A stretch of 29,243 nt of DNA from a virus. The translations under genes and the position numbers were made by a program. Positions within the stretch are counted from its first letter, which is position 1, and the number at the start of each line of letters is the position of its first letter. The notes beneath the pieces are model-generated. The model saw only the letters and a list, made by a program, of their open reading frames with translations, was not told where the DNA came from and did not search any database. Where the stretch lies: positions 1 to 29,243 of IMG/VR virus record IMGVR_UViG_3300032214_000568. One strand, given 5' to 3'. Positions 6,370 to 25,793 of this stretch are shown here, piece by piece.

Positions 6370-6418
6370 TCTTGCTTCTAGTCAAAAAGCAAGTGGCGAG
6401 CCTGCATATACTGAGCAA

Positions 6419-6446
6419 AGGAGGTTGACAACAACCTCCTTTTTTT
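6419..6446 (+). terminator. Strong terminator before the glycan cluster
   Basis: Stem AGGAGGTTG (6419-6427)/CAACCTCCT (6432-6440), 9 bp perfect, loop ACAA, followed by seven T residues. The TTGACA -35 box of the next promoter spans the 3' end of the upstream arm and the loop. Confidence 0.9.
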
Positions 6447-6462
6447 GTATCATATATAAATG
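6425..6462 (+). promoter_or_regulatory. Tandem host-type and late promoters for the glycan cluster
   Basis: TTGACA (6425-6430), exactly 17 bp, TATCAT (6448-6453) forms a sigma70-type promoter whose -35 lies in the terminator hairpin and whose spacer holds the T run. Two bases later TATAAATG (6455-6462) matches the late motif at seven of eight positions and ends 17 bp before the first glycan gene. Confidence 0.65.
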
Positions 6463-6479: not shown

Positions 6480-7394
6480 ATGAATGTAATTGCGGGAAAT
6501 TGTGCAGGAGTTTTTAGTGGATTTCTTTTGCAACTTGCTTGGATGGAAACAGTTGAAAAATCCGATGGAGATATAAATCTTTTTTTACACACAAGAAATA
6601 AAACAAATTATCCTGGTAGTAGTTACTCAAATTATAGATGGATAGAATCATCTCAAGTTAATAATTTTGATGAAGTTCTAGAGAAAAACGTTCTTTTAGA
6701 TTTCTTTGAACCAAATGAGTATCTGGGTAGAGAATATCCAAAAGACTTTATCTATTTTGAAGCTTACCCTGCAGATATAAAGTCTCAATTAAAATACTAC
6801 CCAGAAGATACTCTGAAGTATGACGGTAGAGGCAGCAAGAAAGAGCAATATGTTGATCTGGAAAATCTTACTAGAACTAGATTGTCATTAAATAATCAAT
6901 GGAAAAAATTCAAACCAGTAAATGATTTTGCTGAAAAGATAAAGGATGAAGAAAAATTAATTGAAGGAAAAAAAGTAATGTCTGTTATGCTAAGACAAAC
7001 TGGACATTATCAGGGAGTTTCTAATGTAGTTGAACCTGCCATTGAATCAGTTAAAAATAAAATTGATGAGTATGATGCAGTTCTCCTGACTACAATGATT
7101 CAACCATTTGTTGATGAGTTCAAAAAAGTTTTTGGAGATAGATGTATTGTTGCAGATAGACCAAGGCTTTCTGAAGATATTGATTGGAAGGGAGGTAGAA
7201 ATCCTCAACAGGGTGGACAAGAATATATGGGAGATGAAGAATATAAAGTAGAATATCAAAATGCATTTTTAGATGTAATTTTGTCTAGTAAAACTGAGTA
7301 CATTATTGGCAGTAGTAGTAACATGTTTCTTGCTGCTTTATTAATGAACCCAAGTATCGCATACGATCTTTTTTATTTCGCTGACGGATATTGA
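6480..7394 (+). CDS. Fucosyltransferase-fold glycosyltransferase (O-FucT/GT11-like)
   Basis: This 304-residue protein has features of GDP-fucose-using GT-B enzymes. It has a small N-terminal domain starting with a G-x-C-A-G-x-F-S-G loop, then SVMLRQTGHY (about 168-177) in the place of the H-I-R-R-x-D signature, YDAVLLTTMIQPFVDEFKKV (198-217), and EYIIGSSSNMFLAALLMN (273-290). That last segment matches the nucleotide-sugar site segment 'S-N-S-S-x-x-x-x-L-a'. The strict Arg-Arg pair is replaced by L-R-Q. It is the first gene of the glycan block and is followed by a GT10 fucosyltransferase with 3-bp spacing. Sugar donor inferred as GDP-fucose or a related GDP-L-sugar. Confidence 0.65.
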   Translation: MNVIAGNCAGVFSGFLLQLAWMETVEKSDGDINLFLHTRNKTNYPGSSYSNYRWIESSQVNNFDEVLEKNVLLDFFEPNEYLGREYPKDFIYFEAYPADIKSQLKYYPEDTLKYDGRGSKKEQYVDLENLTRTRLSLNNQWKKFKPVNDFAEKIKDEEKLIEGKKVMSVMLRQTGHYQGVSNVVEPAIESVKNKIDEYDAVLLTTMIQPFVDEFKKVFGDRCIVADRPRLSEDIDWKGGRNPQQGGQEYMGDEEYKVEYQNAFLDVILSSKTEYIIGSSSNMFLAALLMNPSIAYDLFYFADGY

Positions 7395-22535: not shown

Positions 22536-24002
22536 ATGAAACTCAAACAACTGATGCTTGCGCCTGTTGCTCTGGGTATGGTTGCTCCTGTTGCTGCAAA
22601 TGCGGCAGATCTTAACATGGCAGCAGTCAACCAATACTCCTCTGAGCAGGTCACAAGCGTCACTCAATTCTCTGATGTACAACCCACCGATTGGGCATAT
22701 CAGGCACTCAGCAACCTAGTAGAGCGTTATGGTTGCGTTGCTGGTTATCCTAACGGCACCTATGGTGGCACCAAGGCAATGACCCGTTATGAAGCAGCAG
22801 CACTTCTGAATGCTTGTCTTGATCGTGTAACTGAAGTTACTGATGAACTTCGCAAACTACAAACTGAGTTTGCTGCAGAACTTGCAGTTCTCAAAGGTCG
22901 TGTAGATGGTCTGGAAGCACAAGTTAATACACTTGAAGCACAACAGTTCTCGACCACTACTAAACTGCGTGGTGAAGCAAACTTCGTGATCGGCGGTGTT
23001 GACAATTACCAGACCAAGACTGGTGATATTGCCCGTACTGCATTCAACTATGATCTTCGTCTGAACCTGGATACTTCATTCACCGGTAAAGACTTGCTGA
23101 AGACTCGTCTGCGTTCTTCTAATTTCAGCAGTAATCCTTTCGGTTCCAGTTCGTCTATCTTCAAACTTGATAAGGCAGACAACACTCAAGGAGATATGGG
23201 TGATGCTGTAGTTATTGACCGTCTGTATTATTCATTCCCCGCTTTCAATAACACTACCACTCTTACTGCTGGTGCTCTGGTTCGTAATACTGAAATCGCT
23301 TGGATCCCTACTGCTTACAAGTCAAACATTCTTGACTTCTTCCAAGTAGCAGGTGCTCCTGGTGTTTATAACAAGGCAACTGGTGCTGGTTTTGGTATTC
23401 AGTATGGTAAGAAAGGTCTTGTTGCTGGTGTAAACTACGTTGCTCAAACTGGCAGCGATAGTTCTACTGGTGAGTTTGATCGCTCTGGTGCTCTGAATAC
23501 TCTTGCACAAATTGGTTATCGTGGTGACAATTGGGGTGCTGCTTTTGGTTATCGTTATGGTACTGAAGGCACCCGTGTTCGCACCTATAACGGTCTGAAT
23601 GGTGCTTCTGGTACTCTTGTTCCTGGTCAAACCTCTAACGGTTATGCCATTAACGCTTACTGGCAGCCCACTCAATCTGGTTGGGTTCCCTCCATCTCTG
23701 GTGGTTATGGTTGGAACACTGTAAGTGGTACTCAAAGTGCTGCTACTAACAGCCAATCCTGGTTTGCTGGTCTGACTTGGGATGATGTGTTTGTTGATGG
23801 CAACTCTGCTGGTGTTGCTATTGGTCAAGCTCCTACTGGTTCTAACCTTGAGAAGTCCACGATGCTTGAGATCTTCTACAAGTATCAAGTGTCTGACAAC
23901 ATCAGCGTCACTCCTGCTATTATCTACGGCAGTGACAACCAGCGTCTTGTTGGCAACTCCTCTAACTGGGGTGGTGTAATCCAGACTACCTTCAAGTTCT
24001 GA
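22536..24002 (+). CDS. som: Cyanobacterial Som-type outer-membrane porin
   Basis: The 488-residue product has a Sec signal peptide (MKLKQLMLAPVALGMVAPVA then ANA before ADLN). An SLH domain spans about 42-97 (FSDVQPTDWAYQALSNLVER, GYPNGTYGGTKAMTRYEAAA), a coiled coil about 98-138 (TEVTDELRKLQTEFAAELAV), and a beta-barrel of alternating strands runs to a terminal Phe (TTFKF). That order is the plan of marine cyanobacterial porins of the SomA/B type (OprB-like). The gene is almost certainly of host origin. It might renew or alter outer-membrane permeability during infection, for ion, phosphate or iron uptake, or change receptor exposure. Its own promoters and terminator make it a separate unit. 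Confidence 0.93.
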   Translation: MKLKQLMLAPVALGMVAPVAANAADLNMAAVNQYSSEQVTSVTQFSDVQPTDWAYQALSNLVERYGCVAGYPNGTYGGTKAMTRYEAAALLNACLDRVTEVTDELRKLQTEFAAELAVLKGRVDGLEAQVNTLEAQQFSTTTKLRGEANFVIGGVDNYQTKTGDIARTAFNYDLRLNLDTSFTGKDLLKTRLRSSNFSSNPFGSSSSIFKLDKADNTQGDMGDAVVIDRLYYSFPAFNNTTTLTAGALVRNTEIAWIPTAYKSNILDFFQVAGAPGVYNKATGAGFGIQYGKKGLVAGVNYVAQTGSDSSTGEFDRSGALNTLAQIGYRGDNWGAAFGYRYGTEGTRVRTYNGLNGASGTLVPGQTSNGYAINAYWQPTQSGWVPSISGGYGWNTVSGTQSAATNSQSWFAGLTWDDVFVDGNSAGVAIGQAPTGSNLEKSTMLEIFYKYQVSDNISVTPAIIYGSDNQRLVGNSSNWGGVIQTTFKF

Positions 24003-24027
24003 TAATATACTCATAACTTGAGTGAAG

Positions 24028-24052
24028 GCACCCCATTCTGGGGTGCTTTTTT
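24028..24052 (+). terminator. Terminator after the porin
   Basis: Stem GCACCCC (24028-24034)/GGGGTGC (24040-24046), loop ATTCT, then six T residues (24047-24052). Confidence 0.92.
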
Positions 24053-24068: not shown

Positions 24069-24113
24069 CTTAACCAAATCTTAGTGGACTTTAAGGTTTC
24101 CTTCCAGTATTAT
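24069..24113 (+). promoter_or_regulatory. Pho-box-like array and -10 box upstream of pstS
   Basis: Three 8-bp units with an 11-bp period occur: CTTAACCA (24069-24076), CTTAGTGG (24080-24087) and TTAAGGTT (24091-24098), separated by 3 bases. The first fits the cyanobacterial Pho box (PyTTAAPyPyT/A) fully; the others partly. A TATTAT (24108-24113) follows nine bases later, the position at which PhoB replaces a -35 box. Host PhoB control of cyanophage pstS is known from other phages. Confidence 0.7.
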
Positions 24114-24148: not shown

Positions 24149-25114
24149 ATGAAAATGAAACATATTTTTGCTGCTGGTCTAGTTGCTGCTGTTCCTACTG
24201 CTGCTCTTGCTGGACCTGCTATTAATGGAGCAGGTGCTTCATTCCCTGCCCCAATTTATCAACGATGGTTTGCTGACTATGCACGAGCTACTGGGAATCG
24301 GGTTAATTATCAGTCCGTTGGTTCTGGTGCTGGTGTTCGTCAATTCATTGCGGGCACAATTAACTTCGGAGCAAGCGACGAAGCAATCAGCGCAGCAGAC
24401 GCCGCCAAAGTAAAGCGTGGAGTTGTCCAAATTCCTATGGTTGGTGGAACGATTGCTGTTGCTTATAACAAACCTGGATGCACTCTGAAACTGACCCAGA
24501 AGCAAACTGTTGATATTTTTGCTGGTCGTATTAAGAACTGGAACAAAGTTGGATGTGCTGCTGGTCCTATTACTACGGTGTATCGTTCTGATGGTTCTGG
24601 TACTACCTATGCTTTTACTAACTCTCTGGAAGCATTTGGTGGTTGGACTCCTGGTGCTGCCAAATCTGTAAAGTGGCCTACTGGTATTGGTGCCAAGGGT
24701 AATGAAGGTGTTGCTGGTCGTATTCGTCAAACTCCAGGTGCGATTGGTTATGTGAACACTGGATTTGTGAGAGCAAACAAACTTCAGGCAGCTGCAATTC
24801 AAAATAAGGCAGGTAAGTTTGTTCTTCCTACTGCTGCTTCTGGTTCTGCTGCACTGAATGGTATCAAACTGGATGCAAATCTTGCAGGTGAAAATCCAAA
24901 TCCCGTTGGGGCAACTGCATACCCAATTTCAACTCTGACTTGGATTCTTGCATATAAGTCTGGCAATGGTTCTAATACCGATGCCATTCGTAAGGCACTC
25001 AACTATGCTCTGAGTTCTAAAGCACAATCCATTGCTGATGACCTTGGATATGTTCCCTTGAGTGGTTCTATCCTTAACCGAGCACGACTTGCCGTAAACC
25101 GAATCGGTCAGTAA
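24149..25114 (+). CDS. pstS: Phosphate ABC transporter substrate-binding protein PstS
   Basis: The 321-residue protein starts with a signal peptide (MKMKHIFAAGLVAAVPTAAL, cleavage near ALA/GPA) and shows the phosphate site: GAGASFPAPIYQRW, SVGSGAGVRQF, GASDEAIS and YRSDGSGTTYAF. PstS binds phosphate in the periplasm and passes it to PstCAB. Many marine cyanophages carry pstS to keep phosphate entering the infected host. A Pho-box-like array lies upstream and an intrinsic terminator downstream, so it forms its own unit under probable host PhoB control. Confidence 0.97.
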   Translation: MKMKHIFAAGLVAAVPTAALAGPAINGAGASFPAPIYQRWFADYARATGNRVNYQSVGSGAGVRQFIAGTINFGASDEAISAADAAKVKRGVVQIPMVGGTIAVAYNKPGCTLKLTQKQTVDIFAGRIKNWNKVGCAAGPITTVYRSDGSGTTYAFTNSLEAFGGWTPGAAKSVKWPTGIGAKGNEGVAGRIRQTPGAIGYVNTGFVRANKLQAAAIQNKAGKFVLPTAASGSAALNGIKLDANLAGENPNPVGATAYPISTLTWILAYKSGNGSNTDAIRKALNYALSSKAQSIADDLGYVPLSGSILNRARLAVNRIGQ

Positions 25115-25131
25115 ATCTAAACAAAATCTTA

Positions 25132-25158
25132 AGAGGGTCTTGACAGACCCTCTTTTTT
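25132..25158 (+). terminator. Terminator after pstS whose loop is a -35 box
   Basis: Stem AGAGGGTC (25132-25139)/GACCCTCT (25146-25153), 8 bp perfect, T run 25153-25158. The six-base loop (25140-25145) is exactly TTGACA, the -35 box of the promoter for hli. Confidence 0.92.
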
Positions 25159-25168
25159 GCTATATAAT
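25140..25168 (+). promoter_or_regulatory. Perfect consensus sigma70 promoter for hli
   Basis: TTGACA (25140-25145), exactly 17 bp, TATAAT (25163-25168): both hexamers match consensus fully. The -35 is the loop of the pstS terminator and the spacer carries its 3' arm and T run. The hli ATG is 26 bp after the -10. Confidence 0.9.
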
Positions 25169-25194
25169 TGTGTAACAATTCGTAATAAAGCGAA

Positions 25195-25404
25195 ATGACT
25201 GTAACTAAAAATGAGTTCGGGCAAATGAATATGTTTGCTAAAGAACCCTCTATGTACATGACCAAGGAAGACCTTGAGCGTTATGGTATCGAACCCTATG
25301 CTGAGAAAGCGGAGAAAATGAATGGACGCTGGGCTATGGTCGGTATTGTTGCTGGGGCTATTTCTTACGCTCTCACTGGCAACCTCTTCTTTGGAGTAGT
25401 TTGA
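25195..25404 (+). CDS. hli: High-light-inducible protein
   Basis: The 69-residue protein ends with a single helix carrying the chlorophyll-binding HLI signature AEKMNGRWAMVGIVAGAISY (about 41-60), then ALTGNLFFG. The N-terminal 35 residues are polar. HLIPs bind chlorophyll and carotenoid in the thylakoid membrane and help protect photosystem II from excess light. Cyanophages carry several, which support photosynthesis during infection. Its perfect consensus promoter implies strong early expression. Confidence 0.96.
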   Translation: MTVTKNEFGQMNMFAKEPSMYMTKEDLERYGIEPYAEKAEKMNGRWAMVGIVAGAISYALTGNLFFGVV

Positions 25405-25407
25405 GAC

Positions 25408-25436
25408 TTGACAATGACTTCACTCTTGTTTACAAT
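25408..25436 (+). promoter_or_regulatory. Sigma70-type promoter before ferredoxin
   Basis: TTGACA (25408-25413), exactly 17 bp, TACAAT (25431-25436). The start point would lie near 25443, inside the micropeptide frame, so it most likely serves ferredoxin at 25500. Confidence 0.65.
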
Positions 25437-25500
25437 GACATCAGTTGCCTTCTTTGTTCTGTTGGCAGCATCTGTAGAAAAACTCTGTGACACTTACTAA
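25414..25500 (+). CDS. Membrane micropeptide, 28 aa
   Basis: ATG 25414 opens a 28-residue frame: [20 protein letters not shown] then VEKLCDTY. It is one hydrophobic helix, in size like the small subunits of photosystems and cytochrome b6f, though I recognise no specific family. Its stop TAA shares the A of the ferredoxin ATG (TAATG), as expected for coupled translation. It overlaps a promoter, so only one of the two functions may be real. Confidence 0.45.
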
Positions 25501-25793
25501 TGACTGTCTTTAACATTACTCTTCAATCTCCTGACGGCACTGAAACTACTATCGAGTGCCAAGATGATCAATACATTCTTGAGGCTGCTGAAGAAGCAGG
25601 ACTTGATATGATGTATTCTTGTCGTGCAGGTGCTTGCTCTTCTTGTGCAGGAAAACTGATTTCTGGTACTGTTGACAATGAAGAACAATCTTTCCTTGAT
25701 GATGATCAGATTGCAGACGGATTCATTCTCACTTGTGTGGCATATCCCACAAGCGATTGCGTAATTCTTACCGAACAGGAAGAGAACCTGTGA
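25500..25793 (+). CDS. petF: Plant-type [2Fe-2S] ferredoxin
   Basis: The 97-residue product has the four iron-sulfur ligands C41, C46, C49 (in [12 protein letters not shown]) and C79 (in LTCVAYP), with the spacing of cyanobacterial PetF. It carries electrons from photosystem I to FNR and other acceptors. A phage copy could support reductive reactions such as nucleotide reduction or bilin synthesis. It overlaps the gene before by one base and the next by GTGA. Confidence 0.97.

Follow-up and report, generated by a model that had tools for sequence, protein, structure and literature searches.

Composite promoter-terminator motifs are known from T4-like phages under the name PeSLs (promoter-early stem-loops), the source studies given by title being Arbiol 2010 and Comeau 2014 (via PMC4503421). 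These motifs are said to mediate modular shuffling, and PMC4503421 reports that few PeSLs were found in the cyanophage S-PM2. In cyanomyoviruses, the unmodified host polymerase is believed to transcribe the early genes (PMC2984593).

Here we describe an element between the genes pstS and hli of a 29-kb IMG/VR virus record (29,243 nucleotides, hereafter "the window"), whose genes match those of T4-like cyanophages. Like PeSLs, this element combines a terminator stem-loop with a host-type early promoter, lies between variable genes, and is located at a module boundary. From its sequence and that of its relatives, we consider it highly probable that the element is a composite intrinsic terminator and sigma-70 promoter of PeSL-like character, with an overlapping geometry, positioned at the boundary of two transcription units.

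A terminator-like hairpin whose loop is a −35 box

The gap between pstS and hli contains, in order, AAGAGGGTC-TTGACA-GACCCTCTT-TTTTGCTA-TATAAT, an element of 38 bp from the start of the hairpin to the end of the −10 box (Table 1). The arms AAGAGGGTC (25131–25139) and GACCCTCTT (25146–25154) form a 9-bp stem, which can be extended to 10 bp with a 4-nt loop if the outer T and A of the loop also pair. Folding of the RNA from 25131 to 25154 yields −14.8 kcal/mol (z −4.2). A T run that begins within the 3′ arm of the hairpin follows, giving the region the G+C-rich stem and subsequent T run characteristic of intrinsic terminators. The same nucleotides carry a sigma-70 promoter (TTGACA, 16–18 bp, TATAAT) that agrees with the consensus at 12 of 12 bases with a 17-bp spacing. 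This is the sole 12/12 promoter in the window when spacings of 15–19 bp are scanned, and base composition predicts 0.009 such promoters on the + strand.

An earlier note on this DNA had described a six-base TTGACA loop in the pstS terminator, a perfect −10 box exactly 17 bp beyond it, and a 3′ arm and T run that serve as the spacer. All three features are present as described, and the coordinates given there are exact except that the hairpin begins at 25131 rather than at 25132. The same note proposed a competition between DNA and RNA forms for these bases. This is unsupported, since a terminator hairpin takes shape in the nascent RNA, and the DNA strands pair again once the polymerase has passed. 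We also set aside a DNA cruciform that would expose the TTGACA loop, because the arm is short and because sigma reads the −35 box as a double strand, which extrusion would remove. A terminator on the minus strand was ruled out by its poor T tract, and an Rfam search produced only matches below threshold.

Table 1. Features of the pstS-hli region and of the second composite in the window
Feature	Position	Strand	Basis
Second composite: hairpin AAAGGAGGTTGACAACAACCTCCTTT, −35 at 6425–6430, −10 TATCAT at 6448–6453	6417–6453	+	sequence, fold
Ordinary terminator-like hairpin GGCACCCC/GGGGTGC and T run, preceding the promoter region of pstS	24026–24052	+	sequence
Pho-box-like site CTTA-N7-CTTA, upstream of pstS	24069–24083	+	exact consensus match; putative function
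pstS, phosphate-binding protein (upstream unit)	24149–25114	+	PF12849, phrog_5385
Intrinsic-terminator-like hairpin and T run, end of pstS unit	25131–25158	+	fold; pairing kept despite base changes in relatives
−35 box TTGACA, the hairpin loop	25140–25145	+	sequence; TTGAC in 57/63 distinct relatives
17-bp promoter spacer (3′ arm and T run)	25146–25162	+	sequence
−10 box TATAAT	25163–25168	+	sequence; transcript start near 25175 inferred
hli, high light inducible protein (downstream unit)	25195–25404	+	phrog_178
2Fe-2S ferredoxin gene, after hli	25500–25793	+	PF00111, phrog_844

The pstS unit is probably Pho-controlled, as judged from the site upstream of it. The motif concerned is the Pho-box consensus that has been applied to cyanophages (PMC3037559), and control by PhoBR has been cited for pstS of phage P-SSM2 in a paper that also warns that Pho-box predictions in cyanophages are unreliable (PMC10976474). 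Just 5′ of pstS, the window carries a porin gene (22536–24002) with SLH and OprB domains, and S-SRM01 likewise has a gene annotated as a porin. On the other side, the hli leader past the −10 box (25169–25194) reads TGTAACAATTCGTAATAAA, and the leaders of relatives resemble one another (TGTAAAGATTCATTACAAA-like). This leader carries a partial inverted repeat, which is possibly an operator or a leader element. A near-perfect promoter (TTGACA-17-TACAAT, 25408–25436) is present right behind the hli stop codon and upstream of the ferredoxin gene.

The second composite of the window precedes an open reading frame (6480–7394) that has no Pfam or PHROG match. Elsewhere, 12 tRNA genes occupy the + strand between 1354 and 5272. 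Two promoter-like repeats, TTGACAATC...TATGAT, begin at 1595 and 1954, where they abut the genes for tRNA-Ile (ending at 1594) and tRNA-Leu (ending at 1953), respectively.

Recurrence of TTGAC loops in cyanophages and viral contigs

Nine cyanophage genomes and the window, searched with hairpin thresholds that we set for this analysis, contain 334 strong terminators; end pieces are absent from three of the genomes (S-SRM01, 0.8 kb; S-SCSM2R, 4.2 kb; Sf-CH8, 15 kb). Among loop 5-mers in these terminators, TTGAC (21) ranks second to the TTCGG of UUCG-type loops (23), and it becomes the most common (11) once a −10 box matching at least five of six positions is required 16–18 bp past the −35 position. 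Under a stricter definition, the same sequences yield 20 composites, compared to a mean of 0.2 and a maximum of 2 in 30 dinucleotide shuffles. As with PeSLs, there are multiple copies per genome: two in the 29 kb of the window and one to four in each cyanophage genome, with none found in Syn9.

A wider scan of IMG/VR with the pattern GGGNN-TTGACA-NNCCC-N12-TATAAT recovered at least 120 stretches, whereas control patterns with unpaired arms recovered 20 (GGG/GGG) and 43 (CCC/CCC). Both scans argue against a chance overlap of two ordinary signals, a terminator and a promoter, as do the 37 fused elements found at a single locus, that of hli (see below). Relatives that carry no hairpin do exist, and phage RB49 holds the two parts apart, as a fortuitous overlap would allow. 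Taken together, these data make coincidence an explanation to which we give almost no credence.

A palindromic DNA operator for a repressor, overlapping the −35 box and involving no terminator, could produce a similar arrangement, and TTGACA-centred palindromes that lack a T tract do occur in viral contigs. The NN positions of the IMG/VR pattern are unconstrained. Among the matches listed, the second pair is Watson–Crick in 37 of 50 distinct sequences with a T tract (16.6 expected if the positions were independent), and these pairs are of four types. In comparison, the inner pair is Watson–Crick in only 2 of the 34 listed matches without a T tract. Pairing at the free positions thus depends on the T tract, which is terminator-like rather than operator-like behavior. 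Moreover, the stem is free to vary in sequence so long as pairing is kept, whereas an operator would conserve its sequence. Covariation therefore leads us to reject an operator palindrome at the pstS-hli element, an origin that we judge to be very improbable.

A second class of sequences was also observed, in which GGG-TTGACA-CCC palindromes lie over a promoter but have unpaired inner positions and no T tract (loci L097, L161, and L067, and similar IMG/VR loci). These palindromes could be repressor operators.

The hli site in relatives

For the region preceding hli, the window was compared with 14 isolates and 80 IMG/VR loci, and together these sequences provide 63 distinct elements; the relatives are correlated, and the counts that follow are not numbers of independent events. 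TTGAC is present in 57 elements, and the fused geometry, with the hairpin built around the −35 box, is found in 37; examples from cultured relatives that infect Synechococcus are S-RIM44, Syn1, and Sf-CH11. Nine others have a hairpin ahead of the promoter, either separate from it and 41–50 nt upstream (five elements) or abutting it, with no TTGACA in the loop and a poor −35 box (TTGTTT; four elements). The remaining 17 have no detected hairpin, although the promoter is nearly always still there, and two elements counted in this group (L010 and L360) resemble imperfect hairpins. A stem kept without the TTGACA loop, which the earlier note named as counting against its reading, is therefore observed in part, in the four elements with an abutting hairpin, and the 17 elements with no detected hairpin likewise depart from the fused form.

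Among relatives, the register of the stem shifts around a fixed −35 box, which appears in TTGACA, TTGACG, and TTGACC versions, and pairing is preserved. The occurrence of the stem in several registers indicates that the promoter is the constant part and that the hairpin is built around it. The hairpin probably arose around the hli promoter more than once.

The gene upstream is co-directional in 45 of 46 elements that have a terminator of either geometry, compared to 12 of 16 that do not (p 0.014, based on crude open reading frame calls). A strict rule that a co-directional upstream gene is always followed by a hairpin is not absolute, given these 12 hairpin-free exceptions. In most of them, 40–115 nt separate the upstream stop codon from the hli ATG, and this stop codon often falls on the −35 box or beyond it. 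Because 17 of the 63 elements lack a detected hairpin, 12 of these with a co-directional gene upstream, the terminator is not essential, and fusion of hairpin and promoter at hli is common but not obligatory.

Homology to the window stops at or inside the element in approximately 70 of 91 relatives, and it continues through the element mostly where pstS is likewise located upstream. Such breakpoints are consistent with gene exchange at the element.

Possible consequences for transcription

The anatomy of the element, its recurrence, the retention of pairing, the association with co-directional upstream genes, and the homology breakpoints are all features of the sequences themselves. From these we infer termination, the start site, insulation, and a role in gene exchange. 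A polymerase exiting pstS would make the hairpin and T run and then release at approximately 25156–25160. Host polymerase carrying its primary sigma factor would use the loop as a −35 box, together with the T-rich 17-bp spacer and the −10 box, and the hli-ferredoxin unit would begin near 25175. By placing a stop and a start so close together, the element would insulate pstS, with its probable Pho control, from a sigma-70 hli-ferredoxin unit. Each unit would become a self-contained cassette, with the element marking the module boundary. Such a fusion costs little, since a terminator puts no constraint on the sequence of its loop and a promoter spacer can accommodate a T run. The suggestion made earlier, that one element ends one unit and starts the next, agrees well with its recurrence, its variable stem with pairing kept, and its location at a unit boundary.

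It is also conceivable that the overlap couples the two units, either because a terminating polymerase occludes the promoter such that pstS transcription tunes hli initiation, or because polymerase bound at hli affects termination of pstS. The predicted release point lies between the −35 and −10 boxes, and with this geometry a polymerase that terminates there would sit on top of the promoter. Occlusion by a polymerase that pauses and terminates on the promoter may occur, and it is the only coupling that the geometry suggests. However, composites of the same kind are found downstream of many unrelated genes, and the hli promoter is also found with a separate upstream terminator or with none. 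We therefore consider regulatory coupling to be unlikely, and keeping pstS and hli as separate units is a simpler reading than linking their levels. Also unlikely is the broader proposal that several phage lineages have converged on a −35 box in a terminator loop as a regulatory device, wherein the terminating polymerase would occlude the promoter or be handed to it, such that the activity of the next unit would be set directly by transcription from upstream. Fused, tandem, and hairpin-free elements at the hli site form a natural series in which to ask whether termination atop a promoter affects initiation.

Comparison with known promoter-terminator cassettes

The pstS-hli element matches a PeSL in that a terminator stem-loop and a sigma-70-type early promoter are present in one intergenic element. 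It is unlike the PeSLs of RB49, which are tandem in 14 of 14 detected pairs, with the centre of the −35 box 29–56 nt past the hairpin centre. Here that order is absent: the −35 box is the loop, and its offset from the hairpin centre is 0. No match to a rigid motif was obtained in RB49, KVP40, T4, Syn9, or MSShimriz1; the geometries given here for RB49, KVP40, and MSShimriz1 come from a hairpin-based scan that supersedes that search.

Vibrio phage KVP40 was reportedly among the phages compared in the 2014 PeSL paper. Its genome has near-identical elements, AAAGGGTTGAC...GTCAGCCCTTT...TATTAT, in seven places (for example, at 85853 and 121371). As in the pstS-hli element, hairpin and promoter fully overlap and the −10 box lies past the hairpin, but TTGAC is within the 5′ arm rather than in the loop. 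Because KVP40 elements also overlap, we regard the tandem arrangement as belonging to RB49 rather than to PeSLs in general.

The geometry of the pstS-hli element is shared by composites of the Mammaliicoccus phage MSShimriz1 (four copies) and of diverse IMG/VR contigs, in which a terminator with a TTGACA loop is followed by TATAAT 17 bp on. These composites differ from the pstS-hli element in lineage and in stem sequence, and they are possibly convergent. The sampled IMG/VR contigs with loop-centred composites carry an SbcC-like, ClpA-like, or DNA polymerase gene. A terminator loop containing TTGAC, with a −10 box 17 bp past the −35 box, provides a searchable signature for the boundaries of phage transcription units.

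By these comparisons, the pstS-hli element appears to work like a PeSL whose geometry differs from that of RB49. Composite promoter-terminator cassettes now extend to auxiliary metabolic genes of cyanophages, where the geometry is the tightest, and the device between pstS and hli looks like a tighter version of the cassettes of T4-like phages that recurs in many phages.
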